Below are positions 12,653 through 31,876 of a stretch of DNA of 57,621 bases, piece after piece. This stretch comes from an uncultured Draconibacterium sp. (lineage in GTDB: Bacteria; Bacteroidota; Bacteroidia; Bacteroidales; Prolixibacteraceae). Location: contig NZ_CAJXTC010000034.1 in assembly GCF_913060805.1 (NCBI RefSeq), positions 1 through 57,621 of the forward strand, given 5' to 3'. The position numbers and the translations under genes are program-made. A model generated the notes under the pieces. It saw only the letters and a program-made list of their open reading frames with translations, was not told the DNA's origin and searched no databases. Position 1 is the first letter of the stretch. Every line of letters begins with the position of its first letter.

Positions 12653-12988
12653 TCAATCCAGTTCATCACCACACTGCCAAATCAGAATCGGGCGGTGTTT
12701 GTTGGCATCAAAATCAGCAGGATCGACTGTAACGCCCCACTCAACAAGTGTTCCATCGTAGTGGTACACTTCGCAATTGGAGCACGACCAGTAATCGCAG
12801 TACAGGTGATAGAAATATTCTTCGTTGTAAGTCCAGCGCTGCACCCGGCAACCGTAACAACTGTCTGAGTTTTCCAACTCAACCAGACGTGGTTTTATCC
12901 AGTTGGGTACAATTATTGGCTCCGGCTCACGGTCTTCGCAGGCCAGCAAGGCAACAACAAAAAGTGCTATGTAGAAAAGTTTTCGCAT
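12653..12988 (-). CDS. Small Cys-rich lipoprotein, function unknown
   Basis: A 111-residue predicted lipoprotein: a short hydrophobic signal with lipobox L-L-A-C (Cys17), then a 95-residue domain. That domain has seven further cysteines, including C-Y-G-C and the C-D-Y-W-S-C-S-N-C cluster, and many aromatic residues. The pattern suggests disulphides or a metal site in the periplasm or on the surface. I do not recognise the family. It is the last minus-strand gene after the assembly-system locus, 57 bp behind the preceding gene. It could belong to that transcript or be independent. Confidence 0.65.
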   Translation of the reverse strand: MRKLFYIALFVVALLACEDREPEPIIVPNWIKPRLVELENSDSCYGCRVQRWTYNEEYFYHLYCDYWSCSNCEVYHYDGTLVEWGVTVDPADFDANKHRPILIWQCGDELD

Positions 12989-13045
12989 GTGATCGGTACT
13001 TTTTTCACGTCCGTTTTAAGGAAGAACGTTTTTCATCCAATAAAG

Positions 13046-13540
13046 TTAATCATCGTAAATGGTAAAAACCACATCGGCTTCAAATTCGTTGGCTCCCAAC
13101 GACAACGACAGTTCATTGATTCGAAAGTCCAGCGGGATGTTTGAGATCAATCCCATTCCCCGGAAAAAATAAGTAGGATTGTCTTTTATTTCCGCAAAAG
13201 TTGATCCGTCGTGAACGTTGCCGCCGCCCTTTTTATTTAGCTTATCGCCATCGCCCTGGCGCCTAACTTCCAGCTTAATATCATCGGCCCACTCTACATT
13301 TGTTTTATGCACATAAATGCGCCATTTTTCATTTTTTTGCTCCCAATAATTCAGCGATTCAACGGAAAGCTGAACACCCGAATTGGCAGTAATTACGGCT
13401 TCAATATCTTCGCCGGGATCGCTGACATTTATCTGCACCTCGTTAAAAGTTACCATGCCTGTTAACGACAACTGCAATCCCTGGGCACGACTGCCGAGAG
13501 CGAAAAAACATAGCAATATAAAAAAGGTATATCGTTTCAT
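13046..13540 (-). CDS. Secreted beta-rich protein, divergent member of the subunit-like family
   Basis: A 164-residue protein with a cleavable signal peptide ending near A-L-G-S-R-A-Q. The mature part is predicted beta-rich. It ends A-D-V-V-F-T-I-Y-D-D, recalling the Y-T-(L/I)-T-D ends of its three larger neighbours. It lacks their W-x-N-Y-S and G-S-x-Y-T-G blocks, so relatedness is a weak inference. It starts one base after the stop codon of the gene at 13542, so the two are tightly coupled. It may be a minor or adaptor subunit of the neighbouring barrel/chaperone system. Confidence 0.7.
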   Translation of the reverse strand: MKRYTFFILLCFFALGSRAQGLQLSLTGMVTFNEVQINVSDPGEDIEAVITANSGVQLSVESLNYWEQKNEKWRIYVHKTNVEWADDIKLEVRRQGDGDKLNKKGGGNVHDGSTFAEIKDNPTYFFRGMGLISNIPLDFRINELSLSLGANEFEADVVFTIYDD

Positions 13541-13541
13541 A

Positions 13542-14105
13542 TTAGTTGTCGGTTAAGGTATACATAATGGTAAAATCGTGTGCTCCGCTTGCCGACACCT
13601 TCTCCATCTGGCTGATATCGATCTCGAAATTTAGTTGGTGCCCATTACCAATTCCATTGCCCGTGTAAGCACTTCCAATACCGGTTATTATTGGCCGGGG
13701 ATCGCTCCCAACCTTCACTTTTCCAACCGACGCTCCGGTTTTTCCTTCTCCGTTTCCCGAATAATCGGTGGCTTGAATGTACAATTCCAAACCTTCGGGC
13801 AGTGTTCCTCCCGAAATTTGAGCAACAATTGAACGATCGGGACTGAATTTACCCAATGCTGATGAATAATTGATCCAGAATTCCTGCGATGTTAACTGAC
13901 GAACTACCGGCGATCCTCCTGATTCGGCTGACGGAGAAAGTTCGAATTCGATCGTTCCGTTTCCAATGTATTCAACATCCATTAAAGCCACTTCGGGAAG
14001 CGAAAATCCAATATGAACAGTTTCCTCATCAAGCTGGGCACTGGCCTGTTGACACAGCACCAGACTCATTAACAAAGTCGCCAATATGGTAGTTATAATC
14101 TTCAT
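13542..14105 (-). CDS. Secreted subunit-like paralogue C of the barrel/chaperone locus
   Basis: A 187-residue secreted protein. The start is placed at 14105 (M-K-I-I-T-T), where a proper signal peptide begins. The longer frame to 14168 adds 21 residues with no signal character and overlaps the upstream gene. Shared blocks with the proteins at 17973 and 18657 are F-W-I-N-Y-S-S, I-G-S-A-Y-T-G-N-G...N-G-H-Q-L-N, and the C-terminus Y-T-L-T-D-N. The final block resembles the W-T-L-T-D-A-P end of Gram-positive WxL domains. No lipobox and no T9SS sorting domain are present. It lies 10 bp downstream of the barrel gene in one operon. A role as an assembled surface or fibre subunit is inference. Confidence 0.75.
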   Translation of the reverse strand: MKIITTILATLLMSLVLCQQASAQLDEETVHIGFSLPEVALMDVEYIGNGTIEFELSPSAESGGSPVVRQLTSQEFWINYSSALGKFSPDRSIVAQISGGTLPEGLELYIQATDYSGNGEGKTGASVGKVKVGSDPRPIITGIGSAYTGNGIGNGHQLNFEIDISQMEKVSASGAHDFTIMYTLTDN

Positions 14106-14115
14106 TTCTCCTGTC

Positions 14116-17100
14116 CTACTTTTGGTACTGGTACAAGTTAAAAACCTGCCCCTTATCAAATACAACAATAAACAAATTATTGAATTTAAGCTTTAAGCGT
14201 TCATACTCTTTTTTCGCTGTTTCTTCATCCGGATAGCGCCCGATATAATATTTGTGTAAGTTATCAATTTGTTTCTCGAAATAAAACTGCTCATCCTGAA
14301 AAAACGGATCTCCCTCAGGAATCTTCCGGCTAAATGCCCCAACCTGAACACTATAGAACGTTTCCGCCGTTGAAACTTCAGTTTCTTTCTTTTTCGTAGT
14401 GGACTTTAGCTTTAATCCCAAACCACTTTTAAGCGTTGTATTTCCTGCCGGTTTAAAAATAATATTGTTCTTTTTGGTTGGCAGTACAATATCCAATTCT
14501 TTAATTTCCCCTTCGGTAAGCGAAAACTTGTATTCCGACTGGTCGATTTTATACCCGCCCGGAATTGAATTGGCGTAAATCTTAAAAGTAAACTCACCTG
14601 GTTTTAACAACGGAAATGCAAACGATCCATCTTTTTCGGTTGTTATCCGGTATTCATCCAACGCCGATTTTGCCTCGATAATGATATTCGCCGGAGTGGC
14701 ATTCTCATCTGCTGCAGCCTTTAACTTTGCTTCCTCCAACACAATTTTCCCCTTCAGCACGGCACCTTTTAAAATTCGCACATCGATCGTTGACACCTGA
14801 TCTTCAAAAACATTTACCTCAACCGGATTGGGAATATTCGTTAATTCATCGAGCTGAAAATTACTTTCATCAAACGAAACCAGATGCGTTCCGGGGCGCA
14901 CCAAATCGAATGAATAATCGCCGTTTTTTTCGGTAACCGTTGTTTGATTTAACAGCCTCACCCAAACACCCTCAACCGGCTCGCCCTGCTCGTTGCTTAC
15001 CTTTCCACTGATAACACCGGCTTTTATTACCTGCTTTAACGGCACACCGAATTTATAGGCATACGTGGCCGAAAGGGTAAACTCGGCCTCTTCCAGCTCG
15101 GTTTTAAAAATGGTGTAAAAACTGCGCAGCGAAATACTGTGACTTTTCAGGAAATTATAATTCAGGCTCAGCTGCATCAGGTTACGGTTTTTATAATAAT
15201 CGTCGATATCATAGGCATTTTGCACGTAAAAATTGGCATTGAAATTATCTGATATCTGACTTGATGCAGACAAACCCGCTGTGAGATTTTGCTGCTTCCC
15301 CGACACAAATTCGTTGATATTCGACCAGGTTCCAAAAGCGCTGATGTAATGCCGCGAATTGATTTTGATAGTAAAATCACCTGTTCCACGGAAACTGTTT
15401 TGTTCATTCTCGCCGGGATCGAGTAAAAAGTTGGTTGTTTTTCCGGCCTCCCCGGTTAAACTGTACCTGAACCAACGGTATTTCTGGCTGAAACGAATAT
15501 TTGCTGAGCGAGTTTTATAATGAAATTTGTTAAAACTCAGGCGGTCTTTTCGCTCGTACTGCCGCACAAAAAGTTTCAAATTGCTCTGCAAGCCTACTTT
15601 GTAATCAACACTTCCCTGGTACGATTCAGTAATCGGTGCCGTTGCAAAGAAAGTGTCGAGCTGCGCATTCATAAAATCGCGCCGGGCGTAAACACTTAAA
15701 TTCAATTTCTTGCTCACCCGGGCCGAAACATTGGCCGAATAAAACTTTGAGTTATTGTAATAACCCGGATAATTCTTCCCGGCATTGTAGTAGTTTCCGG
15801 AAACATTAAACACCGAAAACTGCGAGTTGATATTCAGCCGGTAAGCATTGTCGGCATCATTATTAAAATAACCGCGCGAAAGTTCCAGTTCAACATCAGT
15901 ACCTTTAAACGGCGAAAACTCCGACATCAAACTCACCAACTGCGCCCGATCGTCGCTAACCGCAAATTGTTTCGAGATATAATACGCCTCAACTTTATTA
16001 TCCTCATTAAAATGATAACCCAGCACACCAGCCATTTCATCCTTTATCTCTTCAAAAAATCGCGGATCGACATAGGTAAATCCTAACTCCAAACCACTAT
16101 TTAGCCGCACCCTGCTTTCAACTCCCATTCCGTATCGGGAAGACTCAGTTAACGGCGTGAACATATAATTCTTCTGCCCCCCGAAAAGCATAAAATTCGG
16201 ATTTTGGTACATCACATAATACTGGTCGTACAACCCGAGGTAGCTCAAATCGTTACTGCTTGGGCCGCGCGCCAGAAACTCCAGCTGATGTTTCCCTGAT
16301 TCATCCAAAGCTCCCTGGCCCTGAACCTGCAGCTGGTAAGTCGACTCATATTTTTCGTCCCTGTTAACTGCCAAATAAGTTCCCGATACCGAAACCGGAA
16401 ACCGAAGAAACAGGTCCTTTTTCATGTTCTTCGACGGGAACACCTGCGACCAATTATTAACGCTTTGCAACACGCGATTTCCGGCATTTACCCGAATGGT
16501 ATAATATTCCCGCTCGCTATTGATCAATTCTTCAGAAGTGGATTTTACAACCGTTATGGTTTTCGACTCGCCAACTTTAAGGCGAACTTCTGCCCCGCCT
16601 TCCACCTCGCAATTCTGGGTTTCTATAAAAAAGCTTTTATCGGTATTCCCCAGGTTTTGCAACAAATAGCTGGCGCGAATTTCTTCGCCGGCATAAACAT
16701 AGTCGGGTTTGTCCAGTTTTTGGACATCTATTTTTTCGACCTCCAAAACCTGCACTTTTACGGAATCTCGTTGCAGAACATCTCCGTTTTCTGCCGAGAT
16801 AAATTCTGCCCGAACCGTATAATTTCCCACGGCATAAGTTTCGGGAATTTGCAACGAAAGAATAAGAAATTTTTTTTCAGATGGTTTTAGCTGAATAGTA
16901 CTGGTTTGGGTCACCAGTTTCCACCCGTCAGGCAAAGTATAATCAGGTGTCGTTTGCAGCTCACTTTCCGAATTGTTCTGAATAAAAAAGGCCAGATTAC
17001 AAACTTTCCCCGGCTCGGATTGGGCTTGTTTTTTTACGAAAGTTGTTTGTACAATTTGCTGCGCCAGCAACTCAAGAGGCAAAGTCAGAAATAATAAAAA

Positions 17101-17124
17101 GATCAGCTTTGTCCCCAAGCGCAT
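14116..17124 (-). CDS. Usher-like outer-membrane barrel with Ig-like and SPOR domains
   Basis: A 1002-residue exported protein. After the signal peptide come two Ig-like, NEW3-type beta domains (about 30-125 and 135-235). A long run of alternating amphipathic strands (about 240-700) reads as an outer-membrane barrel. Two carboxypeptidase-regulatory-like Ig domains follow (about 701-785 with G-K-V-S-N-E-Q-G-E-P-V-E-G, and 786-885), then a Lys-rich linker. A C-terminal SPOR domain (about 923-1002, F-Y-S-V-Q-V-G-A-F and Y-Y-I-G-R-Y-P) should bind peptidoglycan, placing the C-terminus in the periplasm. N-domain, barrel and two C-terminal Ig domains mirror the layout of chaperone-usher ushers, without recognisable usher sequence. 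It sits 2 bp after the chaperone-like gene. The transport role is inferred. Confidence 0.8.
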   Translation of the reverse strand: MRLGTKLIFLLFLTLPLELLAQQIVQTTFVKKQAQSEPGKVCNLAFFIQNNSESELQTTPDYTLPDGWKLVTQTSTIQLKPSEKKFLILSLQIPETYAVGNYTVRAEFISAENGDVLQRDSVKVQVLEVEKIDVQKLDKPDYVYAGEEIRASYLLQNLGNTDKSFFIETQNCEVEGGAEVRLKVGESKTITVVKSTSEELINSEREYYTIRVNAGNRVLQSVNNWSQVFPSKNMKKDLFLRFPVSVSGTYLAVNRDEKYESTYQLQVQGQGALDESGKHQLEFLARGPSSNDLSYLGLYDQYYVMYQNPNFMLFGGQKNYMFTPLTESSRYGMGVESRVRLNSGLELGFTYVDPRFFEEIKDEMAGVLGYHFNEDNKVEAYYISKQFAVSDDRAQLVSLMSEFSPFKGTDVELELSRGYFNNDADNAYRLNINSQFSVFNVSGNYYNAGKNYPGYYNNSKFYSANVSARVSKKLNLSVYARRDFMNAQLDTFFATAPITESYQGSVDYKVGLQSNLKLFVRQYERKDRLSFNKFHYKTRSANIRFSQKYRWFRYSLTGEAGKTTNFLLDPGENEQNSFRGTGDFTIKINSRHYISAFGTWSNINEFVSGKQQNLTAGLSASSQISDNFNANFYVQNAYDIDDYYKNRNLMQLSLNYNFLKSHSISLRSFYTIFKTELEEAEFTLSATYAYKFGVPLKQVIKAGVISGKVSNEQGEPVEGVWVRLLNQTTVTEKNGDYSFDLVRPGTHLVSFDESNFQLDELTNIPNPVEVNVFEDQVSTIDVRILKGAVLKGKIVLEEAKLKAAADENATPANIIIEAKSALDEYRITTEKDGSFAFPLLKPGEFTFKIYANSIPGGYKIDQSEYKFSLTEGEIKELDIVLPTKKNNIIFKPAGNTTLKSGLGLKLKSTTKKKETEVSTAETFYSVQVGAFSRKIPEGDPFFQDEQFYFEKQIDNLHKYYIGRYPDEETAKKEYERLKLKFNNLFIVVFDKGQVFNLYQYQK

Positions 17125-17126
17125 AA

Positions 17127-17930
17127 TTATAGCTCTAGTGTTAAGTTTGTTCCAAAGATGTTATCCTCATCACAATCAGCGATCAGTACTGCAGCATATT
17201 CGCCGGGTTTTACTCCTTCCAGCGGCAACGACAACAAAACAGAAGTAGTTGGATAAGTTTTTCGGCGTTCTGCTTTAAAAACGCCTATCGATTCTCCTTC
17301 AGCGTTAAATAACTCAAGATTTAGTTCCGGTTTTAAAATTCGTTCGCCGGTATTTTCGATGGCCACATTTAACACCTGTGTTTCATTCTCATTGGAGGTA
17401 AGTTCCATCCCCAAAAACTGGAGATCGCGCTTCCCTGTATTTCCAATATTGGTAATTACCTGCACAGCATAACGAATGGCGGTATGAATTTTTACACCCG
17501 ATGATGCAGCTGTATCTTCCGGTTGTATTCCTTCCACCATAATCACGCTCCAGTAAGTTCCTTTCAGTGTGTCATCGGCCGGAACGCTCACTTCGAAATC
17601 GATCATTGCAGTTTCGTTGGGTTGCAGCGTAAGCAAAGTCGGACTGTATTTTATCCAGGCTGCATTCGATCGTGCCAGCGTGCCGGCTTCATCGTGGCGG
17701 CTTTCGCCCGAAAATGCATACCAGTAATCGCGTTGATACACTTTTACACTTTGCGGCTCGGTTCCAGCATTCTGCACCTGAATAGCTCCCCGGTATCCTT
17801 CTCCGGCCTCCGCTATGTTTTCGTGTGTTAAGCCGTTAAGCACAACGATATTCGCATAACTTCGATTCGAAAAAATGCTTGTAATAAATAATAATGGTAT
17901 AAAAAAGAGGAAAAACCTTTTCACTGACAT
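17127..17930 (-). CDS. Periplasmic two-Ig-domain chaperone-like protein (DUF916/PapD-like)
   Basis: A 267-residue exported protein with a signal peptide and no lipobox. The first domain (about 30-160) has Q-V-Q-N-A-G, W-I-K-Y-S-P, L-Q-P-N-E-T and L-K-G-T-Y-W-S-V-I-M, the spacing seen in PapD-type pilus chaperones. The same features occur in DUF916 proteins, the partners of WxL proteins in Gram-positive bacteria. A second Ig-like domain (about 170-267) has I-E-N-T-G and G-E-Y-A-A-V-L. The gene order subunit-like, chaperone-like, barrel, subunit-like strongly suggests it handles the small secreted proteins. Which of the two families it belongs to cannot be settled by eye. Confidence 0.75.
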   Translation of the reverse strand: MSVKRFFLFFIPLLFITSIFSNRSYANIVVLNGLTHENIAEAGEGYRGAIQVQNAGTEPQSVKVYQRDYWYAFSGESRHDEAGTLARSNAAWIKYSPTLLTLQPNETAMIDFEVSVPADDTLKGTYWSVIMVEGIQPEDTAASSGVKIHTAIRYAVQVITNIGNTGKRDLQFLGMELTSNENETQVLNVAIENTGERILKPELNLELFNAEGESIGVFKAERRKTYPTTSVLLSLPLEGVKPGEYAAVLIADCDEDNIFGTNLTLEL

Positions 17931-17972
17931 ATTAGCTGCTTATAAGTTTCGGCTAAAAATACTAATGAAAAA

Positions 17973-18536
17973 CTAATTGTCGTCGGTTAATGTGTACAAT
18001 ATTTGCAGGGAAGTTTCCGACTGCTTCAATTTGGCGTACTGATCAGCTTCATCATCCAGCTCAATTTTATAGCTCAGCAAGTGGCCATTTTGAGCTCCGC
18101 GCCCGGTATAGCAACTCCCGATATTCGAGATTACATCAACCGAACCATTCCTGAGCGACACCCACGATAACGACTCGCCTAATTTTCCTTTTCCGTCTCC
18201 TCTACTTTCCGAAGCTTTAACTTTCAGAGTCATTCCTTGCGGTATCTCGCCGACAACCGTTGCTGTAACTTTTCGTTTATGGTTTTCTCTTACAATCGAA
18301 GAATAGTTAACCCAGATTCCCGACTGCTCTTCTTTGTTTGTTTTGATTTGCTGACCGGCAGTATTTGGCGGTGTAGCATGAAGATTTAAATCGGAACTAT
18401 TTTCCGCTTGCAAAGCCAACAGTGCCACCTCCGGAACGTCAATCCCAAGATTATGGCTGGTACTTTCCTGCGCACCCGCAGCCAATGAAAACAGCGCCAG
18501 AAAAAGAAAACATGATATTGCGTCCAACAACTTCAT
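17973..18536 (-). CDS. Secreted subunit-like paralogue B
   Basis: A 187-residue secreted protein with a signal peptide ending near A-G-A-Q. Diagnostic blocks are I-W-V-N-Y-S-S, I-G-S-C-Y-T-G-R-G...N-G-H-L-L-S-Y, and the C-terminal L-Y-T-L-T-D-D-N. The N-terminal strand after the signal (G-I-D-V-P-E-V-A-L-L) closely matches paralogue C (G-F-S-L-P-E-V-A-L-M). It lies 42 bp upstream of the chaperone-like gene and 120 bp downstream of paralogue A, with a terminator-like hairpin between A and B. Function is unknown. It is proposed as a minor subunit or cell-surface anchor in the same system. Confidence 0.75.
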   Translation of the reverse strand: MKLLDAISCFLFLALFSLAAGAQESTSHNLGIDVPEVALLALQAENSSDLNLHATPPNTAGQQIKTNKEEQSGIWVNYSSIVRENHKRKVTATVVGEIPQGMTLKVKASESRGDGKGKLGESLSWVSLRNGSVDVISNIGSCYTGRGAQNGHLLSYKIELDDEADQYAKLKQSETSLQILYTLTDDN

Positions 18537-18590
18537 GCATTAAATCTACGGCGAAATCTGCGAAAAAGAAATAGCTGAGCAAAAAATCAG

Positions 18591-18626
18591 CAAAAAAGAA
18601 CGGGCCAATCAGTAGATTGACCCGTT
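18591..18626 (-). terminator. Terminator or attenuator between paralogues A and B
   Basis: AACGGGCCAATC (18599-18610) pairs with GATTGACCCGTT (18615-18626), with one mismatch and a 4-nt loop. On the minus strand it runs into TTCTTTTTT. It follows the paralogue A stop by about 30 bp, so A could be expressed much more strongly than the genes behind it. Confidence 0.75.
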
Positions 18627-18656
18627 CGCCCCTTATTGTTTATCTCTGTCCCTTTA

Positions 18657-19262
18657 TTAATTCTCGTCTGTAATTGTGTAAGTCACGATTAAACTTGGAC
18701 TGCTCGCTGCAATATCACCATAATTGTCCTCGTTCGCAGACACACTGTAAGTCAATTCGTGTCCCAGTTCTTCTCCTGCTCCTGTATAACAGCTACCAAT
18801 TCCTGTTACTACATCACTTTCAGTTGAAGTTAGAATTATTTCACCAGCACCTGTTCCTGTTTCACCTGCTCCTCCAGTTGATGCTGAACTTACATTAACT
18901 TTAACATCCAGACCGTCATGGGCGTCACCAGTTACCTTTGCCGTTACTTTATAAGTATTTTCACCTTCTGCAATTGCAGAATAATTTAACCACAAAGAAG
19001 TTGAACCACTTGACTGTGTGAAAACCACCTTATCTCCGGCAACTTCCGCTGCACTTGCTTCAAACGCAAGAGCTTGATTTGATCCGGCCAAACCGATCAT
19101 AGAGTATGATGAAATACTAATGTTCAAAGCATGAGCTGCTGTTGGATCTTCTTGCGCAGGAGAATTACCATTACCGTTGCCATTACCATTATTTTGCGCT
19201 TTGGCAATACTTGAAACCCCCAGAACTAAAATCGCTGCTAATAAAAATGTTACTTTTTTCAT
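18657..19262 (-). CDS. Secreted subunit-like paralogue A, candidate major subunit
   Basis: A 201-residue secreted protein. The start at 19262 gives a typical signal peptide ending S-I-A-K-A-Q. The longer frame to 19373 runs through the promoter and leader. A short N-G repeat tract opens the mature protein. Family blocks are L-W-L-N-Y-S-A, T-G-I-G-S-C-Y-T-G-A-G...G-H-E-L-T-Y, and the C-terminal V-T-Y-T-I-T-D-E-N. The middle is rich in Gly, Ser and Thr. It has its own promoter-like region, a structured leader and a strong terminator. This pattern is typical of an abundant structural subunit ahead of its assembly genes. Confidence 0.78.
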   Translation of the reverse strand: MKKVTFLLAAILVLGVSSIAKAQNNGNGNGNGNSPAQEDPTAAHALNISISSYSMIGLAGSNQALAFEASAAEVAGDKVVFTQSSGSTSLWLNYSAIAEGENTYKVTAKVTGDAHDGLDVKVNVSSASTGGAGETGTGAGEIILTSTESDVVTGIGSCYTGAGEELGHELTYSVSANEDNYGDIAASSPSLIVTYTITDEN

Positions 19263-19386
19263 GATGTTGTGTTGTTTATTTGTTTGTAATTTTTTCTTCA
19301 AAAAGCTGTTGTATCCTTTAGGGTCAGATACGCCTTTTAATAAACAACACTGATGCCCAAATATGCCAATCACTGATTGTCAACAA
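19263..19386 (-). promoter_or_regulatory. Putative promoter and structured leader of paralogue A
   Basis: On the minus strand, CATATTTG (19365-19358) resembles the -7 box TAnnTTTG, and a TTG lies 18 nt upstream at 19386-19384. Transcription would start near 19351, just at GTGTTGTTTA (19350-19341). This pairs perfectly with TAAACAACAC (19278-19269), which ends 6 nt before the ATG. A smaller GTATC/GATAC hairpin (19331-19327 with 19315-19311) lies inside. The leader could stabilise the mRNA or control translation. Confidence 0.4.
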
Positions 19387-19415
19387 CTTAGCATTCGTGC
19401 CAAAATAAAATCACA

Positions 19416-19468
19416 TCCCACGCTGGGACAACAATTAACCAATTGGGACACTTCGGTATTTTGGGACA
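19416..19468. promoter_or_regulatory. Three TGGGACA direct repeats upstream of paralogue A
   Basis: TGGGACA occurs at 19424-19430, 19444-19450 and 19462-19468, at 20- and 18-bp spacing, close to two helical turns. An inverted TCCCA lies at 19416-19420. The array would sit about 70-115 bp upstream of the proposed start, as expected for an activator site. The regulator is unknown. Confidence 0.45.
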
Positions 19469-21943: not shown

Positions 21944-24346
21944 ATGAAACGAATTAAAATTGAAATACCGGTTATTCTGCTTACCATCGTAATCATCTCG
22001 TTGCTTGGATTTTCGGGGAATTTTGTGTACAAAAGTTTATCCGAAATTGTCAATTCAATGCTTTCGGAATCAAAACCCGACAACACGCTCATTTTGGTAA
22101 AAGATGTGGCGATGGATTTGAACGAGACCGAGAACATGGTGAGACTTTATTCGTTGAGTAACGACAACGATTACCTCGAAAATTACAGAAGCGTAAATGA
22201 ATCGCTCGAAACAAAATTTGAAGAATTACAAAGCATTTACAATCCAGATAGCAGCCGGCAAATATTGGTTGATTCGGTACTGATTCTGGCCCAGCAAAAG
22301 GTCGTGGTTTGGGAAAAGATTTTAAACCTTCACTTTTCGCGCGGGAATGAGCACGAAGCTTTTAACCAATACGTTGAAACGCTCGACACTGTATTAACGG
22401 TGCAGGATACCATACATTTTGAAGAGCCTGAAAAACGAGGCTTTTTCAAACGCCTTCTTGGGAAAAAGCAGGAACCGCCCGAGCCAATAATTGTTGACCG
22501 CACCGTGGAAAAACAGCGTCTGCAACAAGAAATTGCAACTCTTGAAAAGGAGCTGAAGCAACGTAATCAACGAATGAGTTCGGCCGAAGCGGTTTACATG
22601 CGCAAAAACTTTGAGATCAGCGAAAATCTATCACAAATTATTACCGAACTGGAACGGCAGGAAGAGGAAAGTTTTCTGCAGCAATCGCAGGAAGCCGAGC
22701 TGTTGGCAAACGAAACTTACGAACGCTTATCGTACTTCGCCTTATCGGTATTCTTGTTGATGCTTTTGGTTTTGATATTGTTTTTCCGCGACCTGCGAAA
22801 ATCGCGCTCGCATCAAAAAGTGCTGAAAAAAGCTAAAACACACGCCGAAAATCTGGCACGCACCAAAGAACTATTCGTGGCCACAGTTAGTCACGAAATG
22901 CGCACGCCTGTTAATGCCATTTACGGATTGAGCGAACAGTTGCTGCAAAAACAACACGACGAAAAAACACAGGAAGATCTGCGAGTGATCTTCGACTCCA
23001 CCAAACATTTGGCGGAACTGGTAAATGACACTTTCGATTTTTCACGACTTGAAAAACAAAACATTCAATTGATTCCGGTGCATTTTTCGCTGGAAGATCT
23101 GCTTCACAAAATTGAGCTGTACAACAAACCAAGTGCAGAGGCTAAAAACATCAGTTTTAAAATTGAGAATAATGTAGAAAACGAGCTGGTGCTGTTTGGC
23201 GACGAAGGCCGGCTAAAACAGATATTAAACAATTTACTTACCAACGCACTGAAATTCACTGACTCGGGAGAAGTTAAATTAGCCGTTACCGCCAAAGAAC
23301 AGAAAAAACAGATCCTCCTCGACTTTGAAATCTCGGACACGGGAATTGGCATACCAAAAGAAAGTCAGGACAAGATATTTGATGATTTTGTACAACTGGA
23401 TACCGACATCAATAAAAAAGCAGGTGGAACCGGTCTCGGACTTTACATTGTAAAAAAACTGGTTGATTTGCTTGGTGGCAAAATATCAGTTGAGAGTGAA
23501 GTCGATAAGGGAACACACTTTTTTGTTTCAGTTCCACTAGAAAAAGGTGACAGCGAGAAACTTCAGCAAATCTTTAAAAGTTTCGACACACCTGAAGTAT
23601 TAAAAGACAAAGCGGTACTAATTGTAGACGACGAAGCTTTCAACCGCCACTTGCTTAAAAGCATTTTCACCAAGTGGGAAGTTGATTTTGACGAAGCAGA
23701 AAACGGACAGGAAGCAGTTACTTTGGCGGCACAAAATAACTACGCACTAATTCTTATGGACATCCGAATGCCTGTGATGAACGGAATAGAAGCTATTCAT
23801 AAGATTAAACAAACAGGACACAAAGCGCGAATCATTTCTTTGTCTGCAAATTCTGATTCTACAAATCCCGACGAAAAAAGTGCTTTTGACAGCGCGCTGA
23901 AAAAACCTTTTGACGAAGCTGCATTGTACAATATTATCTGCAACACCGTGGAAGAAAAACCTGCACAAGAAAACACGAAACAGGAAACAACTTTGATTTA
24001 TCGCCCTGACCTCAGCGAACTAAAACGAATGGGAAATGGCGATCCCGAATTCCTGAAAGAAATGATCGACTTGTTTTTAAAAACCAGCGCTGCCAGCATG
24101 CAGTCGATCGACGAAAACCTTGAAAGTAAAAATTACGACGCTATCGGCGAGCTGGCACATAAACTGGCATCTCCGGTAAAATACATGAATGTAACGGGAG
24201 TTTACAACACAATTAAAGAGTTGGAGAGGCTTGCAAAAGAAGGAAACGATTCAACGAAAATCGAAGAAAAAGCGGCTCAGTTGCATACAGAAATTGCAGC
24301 GCTGAACGAAGAACTTGAAGCACTTCTCAACGAAAAGTTCGAATAA
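21944..24346 (+). CDS. Hybrid sensor histidine kinase with receiver and HPt domains
   Basis: An 800-residue inner-membrane phosphorelay kinase. TM1 lies at about 8-30, followed by a periplasmic helical, coiled-coil-prone sensor region of about 230 residues, and TM2 at about 262-282. HisKA has the phosphoacceptor His317 in S-H-E-M-R-T-P. HATPase_c is shown by D-T-G-I-G-I-P and G-G-T-G-L-G-L. A receiver domain carries Asp606 in L-M-D-I-R-M-P, and a C-terminal HPt domain has His739 in L-A-H-K-L. The internal relay is complete, so it can pass phosphate to a separate regulator. The NtrC-type regulator two genes downstream is the natural candidate. The sensed signal is unknown. Confidence 0.93.
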   Translation: MKRIKIEIPVILLTIVIISLLGFSGNFVYKSLSEIVNSMLSESKPDNTLILVKDVAMDLNETENMVRLYSLSNDNDYLENYRSVNESLETKFEELQSIYNPDSSRQILVDSVLILAQQKVVVWEKILNLHFSRGNEHEAFNQYVETLDTVLTVQDTIHFEEPEKRGFFKRLLGKKQEPPEPIIVDRTVEKQRLQQEIATLEKELKQRNQRMSSAEAVYMRKNFEISENLSQIITELERQEEESFLQQSQEAELLANETYERLSYFALSVFLLMLLVLILFFRDLRKSRSHQKVLKKAKTHAENLARTKELFVATVSHEMRTPVNAIYGLSEQLLQKQHDEKTQEDLRVIFDSTKHLAELVNDTFDFSRLEKQNIQLIPVHFSLEDLLHKIELYNKPSAEAKNISFKIENNVENELVLFGDEGRLKQILNNLLTNALKFTDSGEVKLAVTAKEQKKQILLDFEISDTGIGIPKESQDKIFDDFVQLDTDINKKAGGTGLGLYIVKKLVDLLGGKISVESEVDKGTHFFVSVPLEKGDSEKLQQIFKSFDTPEVLKDKAVLIVDDEAFNRHLLKSIFTKWEVDFDEAENGQEAVTLAAQNNYALILMDIRMPVMNGIEAIHKIKQTGHKARIISLSANSDSTNPDEKSAFDSALKKPFDEAALYNIICNTVEEKPAQENTKQETTLIYRPDLSELKRMGNGDPEFLKEMIDLFLKTSAASMQSIDENLESKNYDAIGELAHKLASPVKYMNVTGVYNTIKELERLAKEGNDSTKIEEKAAQLHTEIAALNEELEALLNEKFE

Positions 24347-29645: not shown

Positions 29646-29716
29646 ACAATTCATCCCACAAATTCCACAGTTCGGTAAAGCAAATTTCATGACTTGGTGT
29701 TTTCGCCGGAATTTTG
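29646..29716 (+). promoter_or_regulatory. LytTR-type binding site and promoter of the TonB-type receptor
   Basis: ACAATTCAT (29646-29654), a 12-nt spacer, then ACAGTTCGG (29667-29675). The second half-site matches the published LytTR consensus [TA][AC][CA]GTTN[AG][TG] fully and the first has one mismatch. A TTTTG -7-like box follows exactly 36 nt later (29712-29716). The arrangement is repeated at 31988-32058. Confidence 0.7.
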
Positions 29717-29743
29717 AAGCAGAAAACAAAACAAAAACAAGTC

Positions 29744-31876
29744 ATGAAAACAATTATTACAATCTGCTTCATTTTTATATCTGCGCTTGCCTTTGCGCAG
29801 GTAACCATTTCCGGAAAAGTAGTTACCAAAAACGGCGAGCCCATTCCGGGAGTGAACATTTACATTGAAAACACTTACGACGGAGCCAGCTCGGATAGCG
29901 AAGGAAATTTTAGCTTCGAAACAACGGAAAACGGACAACAAACACTTGTCGCTTCTTTTATTGGCTATAAAACCTGGAGCGAAACTATCGATTTGCAAAA
30001 TGATGTGACTCTGCAAATTGAATTACAGGAAAGCGTAAACAGCATTGATGCTGTTACCATTACTGCAGGAAGTTTTGCCGCCGATGATGAATCGCGGGCA
30101 TCGGTTATGAAATCGCTGGATGTGTACACTACGCCAAGTGCCAACGGCGATGTAATGGCAGCCATTCGCACGATGCCGGGCACACAGGCTTCTGCCGACG
30201 ACGGGCGTTTACTGGTGCGCGGTGGCGATGCCTATGAGACTTCAACCTACATCGACGGGCTGGTTGCTTCAAAACCTTATTATTCCAAAACTCCTGATGT
30301 AGCTACCCGCGGACGATTCGCACCATCATTATTCAACGGTGTACAATTTAACACAGGAGGTTACTCAGCTGAATATGGACAGGCACTATCTTCGGTTTTG
30401 GTGTTAAAATCTACCGATCTTGCTGAAGCTGATAACACCGGTATTTCGTTAATGACCATTGGCGCCGAGGCAAACCGCACCGAACGCTGGGAAAATACCT
30501 CGCTAAATGTGTCGGGTGGTTATACCAACCTGAGTTTATACGATAAGGTATTTAAAAGTAATGTTGACTGGGAGAAACCTGTTGAATCGGTAAACGGAAC
30601 TGCAGTTTTTCGTCACAAAACAAGCTCAAGTGGTATGTTTAAAGCCTACGCTACTGCCGATTATGGCGACCTCGCTTACCTCGTTCCGGCCGGTAACGAC
30701 GGAGAAAACATGAAGATCAGCAGCAAAGGAGGAACCGTTTATTCCAATCTCTCGTACCGCGACTGCTTTTCAGAAAAATCGTGCTATCGTATCGGAGTTT
30801 CTTCCACTTATCAGGATAACCGTTTGGGATTGGGATCCGACGATGTGAACACCAAAGAGCTCAATGTTGAATCTCGCTTTGCCATTGTACACGATATTTC
30901 AGAAGGCATAAAATTAACCTGGGGAGCGAACGAAACTTATAACAAATACGATCAGGATTATATAGAAAATGAAGGTGCAACATACAATGGTTCTTTCGAC
31001 GACCATTTGTTGGGTGCTTTTATCGAGCCGGAGATCAAATTCACAAAAAACTTTGGTATCCGCCCGGGATTTCGCACCGAATACTCGTCGGTGATTAATA
31101 AATGGAATGTAGCTCCACGTTTTGCACTGGCGTTGAAAACAGGAGAAAAAGCACAACTGGCCGGAGCATGGGGCTTGTATCATCAAACGCCACAGGCCGA
31201 CTACCTGAAAATAAACACCGATCTCGATTTTGAACAGGCCACGCATTATATCCTCAGCTACCAGTTTGGCGACAACTCAGAACGTTTGTTCCGTACCGAA
31301 GCTTACTACAAAAAATACAGCGACCTCATAACATATTCGGTGGGTGAAAACGGATTACCGGAGAATCTGCAAAACGATGGAAGCGGTTATGCCGCCGGTT
31401 TCGATATCTTTTGGCGCGATCAAAAAAGTATAAAAGGATTCGACTACTGGATTACCTACTCGTACATCGATACCAAACGAAAATACCAGTACTACCCTGA
31501 AAAGGCCACGCCTTACTTTATCTCCGACCATAATTTTTCGGTGGTAGGAAAATATTGGGTGAATAAAATAAACACACAGTTTGGCGCTTCGTTTACTGCC
31601 GCCAGCGGTCGTCCGTTCAATGATCCTAACTCTCCAAAGTTCAACAGCGAGCGCACAGAAATGTATTCCGACCTGAGTCTGAACATGAGCCATGTCTTTT
31701 ACATTGGAAATCAATATTCAGTGCTGTACTGCTCGGTAAACAATGTGTTGGGAAATGACAATGTGCTGAGCTACCGCCCTACAAACGTTGCCGATGCCCA
31801 GGGAAATTACTCACTCGTTCCGGTAAAACGCGACATGAAACGATTTGTTTTTATCGGTTTGTTCCTTAATTTTTAA
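29744..31876 (+). CDS. TonB-dependent-receptor-like outer-membrane protein
   Basis: A 710-residue outer-membrane protein. The start is ATG 29744 (M-K-T-I-I-T), giving a signal peptide; the TTG at 29714 is not used. An N-terminal carboxypeptidase-regulatory-like domain (about 20-100, V-T-I-S-G-K-V-V-T-K-N-G-E-P-I-P-G-V-N) is followed by a plug domain with L-V-R-G-G-D-A-Y-E-T. A beta-barrel ends in an aromatic-rich strand (F-V-F-I-G-L-F-L-N-F). No SusD partner lies next to it, so a glycan-uptake role is not implied. It shares a LytTR-type promoter with the gene at 32105 and is probably controlled by the LytS/LytTR pair downstream. Confidence 0.9.
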   Translation: MKTIITICFIFISALAFAQVTISGKVVTKNGEPIPGVNIYIENTYDGASSDSEGNFSFETTENGQQTLVASFIGYKTWSETIDLQNDVTLQIELQESVNSIDAVTITAGSFAADDESRASVMKSLDVYTTPSANGDVMAAIRTMPGTQASADDGRLLVRGGDAYETSTYIDGLVASKPYYSKTPDVATRGRFAPSLFNGVQFNTGGYSAEYGQALSSVLVLKSTDLAEADNTGISLMTIGAEANRTERWENTSLNVSGGYTNLSLYDKVFKSNVDWEKPVESVNGTAVFRHKTSSSGMFKAYATADYGDLAYLVPAGNDGENMKISSKGGTVYSNLSYRDCFSEKSCYRIGVSSTYQDNRLGLGSDDVNTKELNVESRFAIVHDISEGIKLTWGANETYNKYDQDYIENEGATYNGSFDDHLLGAFIEPEIKFTKNFGIRPGFRTEYSSVINKWNVAPRFALALKTGEKAQLAGAWGLYHQTPQADYLKINTDLDFEQATHYILSYQFGDNSERLFRTEAYYKKYSDLITYSVGENGLPENLQNDGSGYAAGFDIFWRDQKSIKGFDYWITYSYIDTKRKYQYYPEKATPYFISDHNFSVVGKYWVNKINTQFGASFTAASGRPFNDPNSPKFNSERTEMYSDLSLNMSHVFYIGNQYSVLYCSVNNVLGNDNVLSYRPTNVADAQGNYSLVPVKRDMKRFVFIGLFLNF

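Follow-up and report, generated by a model that had tools for sequence, protein, structure and literature searches.

The gene cluster on the minus strand at positions 12653–19468 of a 57,621-nucleotide contig from an uncultured Draconibacterium sp. (Bacteroidota; NZ_CAJXTC010000034.1; the whole stretch is called the window below) probably encodes an assembly line for surface fibres, to which we assign a probability of about 0.72. A homologue of WxLIP, the DUF916-DUF3324 protein of Gram-positive WxL clusters, would act as chaperone, and a predicted outer-membrane barrel would thread small secreted subunits into the fibre in the manner of the chaperone-usher pili, a textbook surface-assembly system. 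The first-pass annotation had left open whether the cluster is a counterpart of the chaperone-usher or of the WxL loci; in a sense it is both, since the chaperone is related to WxLIP, the barrel resembles FimD and PapC in predicted structure, and the gene order is chaperone-usher-like. All six open reading frames (ORFs) that it had listed were found. At the thresholds applied, profile searches of the own genome (79 contigs) detected a single chaperone, three subunits and a single barrel, all in the cluster. Scans of the seven cluster proteins with Pfam and NCBIfam named no system, and family searches assigned the genes to no unrelated known pathway.

The two-Ig chaperone and its kinship with WxLIP

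The exported two-Ig protein is present as annotated, with a domain order that agrees with the structural model, and its closest named relatives are 82–84% identical. Its family is related in sequence to WxLIP: the two WxLIP domains occur in tandem, with Pfam recognizing PGBD in 14 and HBD in 15 of 35 close members, and PGBD in 21 of 28 diverse ones. The window's chaperone alone stays under the Pfam cut-off for both (14.9 and 13.8 bits). The family profile matches PDB 9i25_C with E = 6.7e-7 across positions 36–261, and in structure searches the predicted fold is that of WxLIP and of the chaperones of the chaperone-usher pathway (PapD/CfaA fold). Two relatives are already named DUF3324 in UniRef, so that the link to WxLIP is visible in automatic annotation; a text drawing this conclusion was not found in the literature, which was covered by titles and abstract openings, with subscription papers and preprints mostly outside the scope.

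The family has no C-terminal membrane helix. None of the 35 close and none of the 28 diverse chaperone sequences exceeds a mean hydropathy of 1.6 over the last 60 residues, whereas two WxLIPs from Enterococcus reach 2.0 and 2.4 by the same measure. The chaperone is probably periplasmic and soluble. Its candidate donor strand has alternating hydrophobic residues: positions 146, 148, 152, 154, 156 and 158 are hydrophobic in all 35 close relatives (as are 155 and 159) and, in this order, in 21, 28, 14, 27, 28 and 28 of the 28 diverse sequences. R153 is invariant among the close relatives.

The genes of subunit subB and of the chaperone are in frame over a gap of 42 bases, and reading through this gap puts both proteins on one chain. 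AlphaFold2 with a stacked alignment gave for this fused chain a mean predicted local distance difference test score of 79.7 and a predicted template modelling score (pTM) of 0.71, in one model run without a non-cognate control. Since the 241 chaperone residues alone would yield a pTM of at most about 0.51, the subunit appears to be placed relative to the chaperone with some confidence. The two-Ig fold and the docking of the subunit on the chaperone are thus predicted, and chaperone residues 146–158 lie in a long strand of the fused model (residues 348–364). The VIA of this model covers residues 226–469 only and gives nothing on the subunit fold.

The barrel protein and the small subunits

For the 1002-residue protein a domain series Ig-barrel-Ig-Ig-SPOR had been proposed. 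The protein is indeed beta-rich and the model has this domain order, but the C-terminal pair matches CarboxypepD_reg, SdrD_B, SpaA and fn3_3 in Pfam and consists of prealbumin-like or related sandwiches. SPOR is listed for many relatives; in the window protein itself it falls below the Pfam cut-off (18.6 versus 21 bits), and among 18 diverse barrel proteins it was found in two. The N-terminal region has a weak Pfam match to NPCBM_assoc (residues 51–107). In three of four profile comparisons this two-domain region was matched with Deinococcus proteins, and it may for this reason be the site at which the chaperone docks.

Structure prediction, which might have yielded no barrel at all, gave one whose 26 strands span residues 239 to 698; the largest gap between strands is 15 residues, and no insertion has the size of a plug. 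Ushers have a 24-strand barrel with an inserted plug domain, a combination that the model lacks. The general architecture of ushers, an N-terminal domain followed by a large barrel and two C-terminal beta-sandwich domains, is nevertheless seen in the model, which is predicted to have two beta domains on either side of the barrel. In Foldseek the protein matches two ushers best, FimD and PapC, and the VIA alignment to FimD covers model residues 240–882. Structure matches of the barrel also include MtrB and a TonB-receptor, and the barrel taken alone is as similar to large porins such as MtrB as to ushers, or more so.

The three small proteins subA, subB and subC, annotated as paralogues, are true paralogues by BLASTP (subA-subB 33% identity, E = 7e-29; subB-subC 31%, E = 4e-26; subA-subC 30%, E = 3e-15), and in the own genome subA matches the subunit family profile A2 with E = 6.9e-52. 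SubB has 259 relatives at E ≤ 0.001 and is 87% identical to a protein of Draconibacterium sediminis. The shared motif blocks pointed out earlier recur in an alignment of 40 members as invariant W75, N77, Y78, G140, T144-G145, G151-H152, Y181-T182 and T184-D185. In 40 of 40 members the chain ends one to three residues past Y-T-[LI]-T; in the AlphaFold2 model of subB the last strand (175–186) stops one residue short of the C-terminus. At the other end H28 is found in 38 of 40 members and the hydrophobic positions 30, 32 and 34 are conserved. Despite this conservation residues 20–36 of the subB model, ahead of the first strand, are unstructured; outside the signal peptide and a single short helix, the remainder is all beta by DSSP. 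The statement that lipoboxes are lacking stands for the three subunits, whose signal peptides end in AGAQ, AKAQ and ASAQ, but not for the 111-residue protein (12653–12988), which has a lipobox-like LLAC.

Several attempts to give the subunits a family name led nowhere. SCPU (PF05229) was tried because subunit C-termini such as G-T-Y-T-Q-T-V-T-Y resemble those of that family; the cut-off was reached in none of 28 genomes, and of six weaker matches listed none lies at a chaperone locus. DUF4402 (PF14352), the UniRef name of two relatives, was above cut-off in none of the 28 genomes and absent from the own genome. Searching PDB sequences with the subunit profile gave matches at chance level only (best E = 0.16). 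Two WxL proteins from Enterococcus, compared with the subunit profiles by hhalign, had probabilities of 0.2–7.

Two further proteins complete the cluster. Homologues of the 164-residue protein occur in 14 of 40 compared loci, and it is likely a minor subunit. For the 111-residue putative lipoprotein, homologues with 66–90% identity were noticed near the end of the operon in eight of the 40 loci; it is possibly an assembly or disulfide factor.

Gene linkage and related loci

Within the class, 25 of 295 genomes carry the chaperone, as do 39 of 140 within the family; a broader profile detected it in 85 of 395 genomes across Bacteroidota, weak partial matches included. The relatives mostly carry the name "hypothetical" among the matches listed. 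Linkage to the barrel gene was scored with profile A9, which comprises the barrel and the N-domain. The full barrel profile A3 was discarded for this purpose: it also matches the window ORF 29714–31876 (E = 9e-6), probably via a shared CarboxypepD_reg domain. Among the 40 compared loci, 34 had an A3 match on another ORF and six had none. With A9, 31 barrel genes were found in 27 of the same 395 genomes (34 match rows, of which three were second rows for genes already counted and were dropped). Of these genes, 28 have a chaperone match no more than 5 kb away, which is not chance; the distance is at most 200 bp for 16, and 26 are on the same strand as the chaperone match. The three unlinked matches span 85–151 model positions in frames of 391–541 residues. 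Conversely, a barrel match was near 28 of 41 strong chaperone genes, which is a lower bound because scoring was limited to two candidates in each genome.

Subunit relatives were recognizable in 17 of the 40 compared loci. The gene order, whose conservation had been proposed as a check, is kept as one to three subunits, chaperone, barrel and subunit in all 12 close-type Prolixibacteraceae loci that were examined, out of 14 such loci. A relative of the 164-residue protein follows in ten of these 12 (it is absent from L085 and L086, which have one subunit gene before and one after), and in L087 an additional ORF of 153 residues separates the first two subunit genes. Distant loci have other orders, for example subunit, barrel, chaperone and a protein of about 380 residues in L082–L084, or chaperone, two small proteins and barrel in L062, L067 and L068.

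In all 51 loci retrieved with one Chryseobacterium-type chaperone a separate barrel gene begins 6–33 bp downstream, and 49 of them also have an ORF of 400–600 residues with Y-Y-S-F shortly before its end. The six of these loci that were examined contain, in this order, two to seven tandem genes (180–193 residues), the chaperone, the barrel and a protein of 476–478 residues, whose C-terminus (for example T-T-Y-S-I-N-V-Y-Y-S-F-T-A-I) is like that of the subunits (G-T-Y-T-Q-T-V-T-Y-T-A-T-A-L). Arrays of five to seven subunit genes were seen upstream of the chaperone at L156:1667-6920, L164:3095-6919 and L192:3520-6920. In four arrays compared, the first gene shares 53–59% identity with the others; among these others, identity in the three larger arrays is 82–100%, a pattern that suggests a recent expansion of the main subunit. 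The order is also that of ecpABCD in Escherichia coli K-12, namely pilin, chaperone, usher and large adhesin.

The system extends beyond Bacteroidota. A tblastn search of plasmids with a Bacteroidota chaperone (E up to 10) gave 26 records, 19 from Enterococcus, four from Deinococcus, two from Clavibacter and one from Arthrobacter; among the 20 matches listed, those from Deinococcus had E values of 1e-6 to 7e-11 and those from Enterococcus of 0.01 to 7. On plasmid 2 of D. deserti the genes for a 164-residue protein, the chaperone and an 839-residue barrel relative are adjacent. By hhalign, this chaperone matches chaperone profile A1 with a probability of 99.9 (30% identity, 246 columns) and the 839-residue protein matches A3 with 98.6 over 709 columns. 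A small protein next to this chaperone has G-V-S-H-T-V-T-L-S near its start, similar to the N-terminal segment of the subunits, and ends in I-T-V-T-Y-V-L-A-D-E. In Deinococcus sp. NW-56 a plasmid-encoded protein of 1013 residues matches A3 in 202 N-terminal columns only (96.7). The D. deserti chaperone (WP_012695199.1; L129:7944-8714), whose gene is separated by 1 bp from that of the barrel relative downstream, carries the label "FimB/Mfa2 family fimbrial subunit"; by hhalign it falls into the WxLIP-like chaperone family. We did not adopt the label, which probably stems from a marginal match.

Proposed mechanism and alternatives

The path of a subunit from the chaperone into the fibre may be pictured as follows. 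After export, chaperone strand 146–158 with its alternating hydrophobic residues would complete the beta-sandwich of a subunit and hold its C-terminal Y-T-L-T-D strand. At the periplasmic side of the barrel, the N-terminal S-H-x-[IL]-x-[IV]-x-[IV]-P-E segment of another subunit would replace the chaperone strand, and the growing chain would leave via the barrel, needing no external energy supply. In this lineage the SPOR domain could tie the barrel to peptidoglycan. Tip or minor subunits would likely be the 164-residue protein here and the 477-residue protein in Chryseobacterium.

By its defining sequence families the cluster lies outside the chaperone-usher pathway. PapD_N (PF00345) matched neither the window chaperone nor any of the 35 close members at E ≤ 0.1, and five of the 28 diverse sequences matched weakly (best E = 0.00034). 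The usher profile PF00577 had no match below E = 0.08 in the 18 barrel proteins, among the matches listed, which cover 25 of 30 families; CooC_C matched two of the 18 weakly, likewise among the matches listed. Profile comparisons gave no significant link to the chaperones EcpB, FimC and YadV, nor to FimD, EcpC and HtrE (probability 0.15–14). For the barrel protein and the subunits, no sequence family in common with the E. coli components was detected. The model further differs from ushers in its 26 plug-free strands and all-beta N-terminal domains, and this lineage in its SPOR; the likeness to alternative and archaic systems (CFA/I with CfaA, Csu with CsuC, EcpABCD) lies in the predicted chaperone fold, the domain order and, for ecpABCD, the operon order. 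On the WxL side, the WxL profile (PF13731) matched nothing in the own genome at E ≤ 1 and none of the 40 subunits, the subunits have no match to profiles of WxL or of pilins, and in place of a pair of W-x-L motifs they have W-x-N-Y-S and Y-T-L-T-D. Their likeness to WxL proteins, both ending in an aromatic-T-L strand, thus rests mainly on the resemblance of the C-terminal Y-T-L-T-D.

The kinship with WxLIP, to which the chaperone-like family comes closest in sequence and structure, could nevertheless mean that the WxLIP-like protein and the small proteins form a fixed, non-polymerising complex of WxL type in a diderm, at the cell surface or peptidoglycan, with the barrel-SPOR protein as its anchor across the outer membrane. 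In the parts of PMC10599100 covered here, binding of peptidoglycan and host is proposed, with WxLIP remaining with WxL at the cell wall, and AlphaFold2 predicts a WxLIP strand that completes the WxL sandwich, which we would read as donor-strand complementation, as proposed here for chaperone and subunit. Small secreted partners are encoded alongside a two-Ig family akin in sequence and structure in both cases, SPOR suggests a peptidoglycan link, and in an hmmsearch with the loose, diverse subunit profile A6 one WxL protein of E. faecium ranked first (11.7 bits, E = 0.00015 among 13 sequences), a weak match that was not used. Such a complex is nonetheless unlikely. Having no WxL domain and no membrane helix, the cluster is not a WxL cluster by sequence; it has an extra outer-membrane barrel protein and diderm hosts (Bacteroidota, Deinococcota), SPOR is rare among diverse barrel proteins, and the subunits of the Chryseobacterium arrays, most of them 82–100% identical, resemble major fibre subunits.

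Slightly less probable is that the barrel exports a few secreted adhesins through the outer membrane, similar to two-partner systems, with the two-Ig protein as a periplasmic holdase and no fibre being formed. The porin-like barrel and the few subunit genes in loci such as L085 and L086 would suit it; the conserved ending with its C-terminal strand in all 40 subunits and the conserved, unstructured alternating N-terminal segment would suit donor-strand exchange, and the C-terminal beta domains follow the usher order. That the cluster is a known system under another name, i.e., type V pili, the type IX secretion system or archaic SCPU pili, is very improbable, as judged from the signal peptides and from the Mfa2 and SCPU profiles. 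The pilins of type V pili are lipoproteins; subA to subC have ordinary signal peptides ending in A-x-A-Q, and a dedicated two-Ig chaperone and a barrel are present. Type V pili are reportedly surface fibres of Bacteroidota for which a donor-strand mechanism is proposed (PMC4789730, PMC5789003). The Mfa2 match of the D. deserti chaperone is just over the cut-off (21.7 versus 21.2 bits) and spans 58 of the 277 positions in the model; among the 35 close members a single one has such a match (E = 0.091). SCPU is disfavoured by the search described above.

Among the papers listed in the literature searches, no chaperone-usher-type system in Bacteroidota was found, and no description of such a system in papers on Deinococcus, Chryseobacterium, WxL or DUF4402. 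The parts of PMC4654587 covered list archaic systems for Proteobacteria, Cyanobacteria and Deinococcus-Thermus and contain no word starting with "Bacteroid"; PMC4793230, in the part covered, excludes the chaperone-usher pathway from its survey, and its silence is therefore uninformative. The chances appear evenly balanced that the fibre assembly line proposed here represents a third, phylum-crossing chaperone-usher class (Bacteroidota, Deinococcota) with a soluble WxLIP chaperone, that WxLIPs and usher-pathway chaperones form one donor-strand superfamily with WxL clusters as usher-less relatives of pili, and that the plug-free 26-strand barrel was recruited independently. Should the proposed assembly line be real, a common and mostly "hypothetical" operon of Bacteroidota would make surface fibres in a way related to that of chaperone-usher pili, and the role proposed for WxLIP in Gram-positive bacteria would need revision towards donor-strand chaperoning.

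The coordinates are given in Table 1. The annotated ORFs themselves stand, with two gene starts revised: the ATG at 19262 replaces the GTG of the longest ORF for subA, and subC starts at 14105.

Table 1. Features of the cluster in window coordinates
Feature	Position	Strand	Description
subA	18657..19262	-	small secreted subunit paralogue, 201 residues; signal peptide ends AKAQ; C-terminus YTITDEN; from ORF and translation
subB	17973..18536	-	small secreted subunit paralogue, 187 residues; C-terminus YTLTDDN; predicted beta-rich
subB residues 24-36	18429..18467	-	S-H-x-L-x-I-x-V-P-E; candidate N-terminal donor strand; column counts, DSSP and local model confidence
Chaperone-like two-Ig protein	17127..17930	-	267 residues, signal peptide; family related to WxLIP (DUF916-DUF3324)
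Chaperone residues 146-158	17457..17495	-	V-K-I-H-T-A-I-R-Y-A-V-Q-V; candidate G1 donor strand
Usher-like protein	14116..17124	-	1002 residues
Usher-like residues 25-214	16483..17052	-	two predicted N-terminal beta domains; DSSP of model
Usher-like residues 239-698	15031..16410	-	predicted 26-strand beta barrel; DSSP, structure matches
Usher-like residues 703-881	14482..15018	-	two predicted C-terminal beta-sandwich (CarboxypepD_reg/SpaA-like) domains; Pfam and model
Usher-like residues 922-1002	14119..14361	-	SPOR domain, sub-cut-off here
subC	13542..14105	-	small secreted subunit paralogue 3' of usher-like gene, 187 residues; C-terminus YTLTDN
164-residue secreted protein	13046..13540	-	ends F-E-A-D-V-V-F-T-I-Y-D-D; likely minor subunit
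111-residue cysteine-rich putative lipoprotein (LLAC)	12653..12988	-	membership in system uncertain

Outside the cluster, the window ORF 21944–24346 (800 residues) has kinase and receiver-like sequence. ORFs that resemble response regulators, as judged by the beginnings of their sequences only, adjoin the module upstream in L061 and L085 and downstream in L149, L156, L164, L178 and L192.

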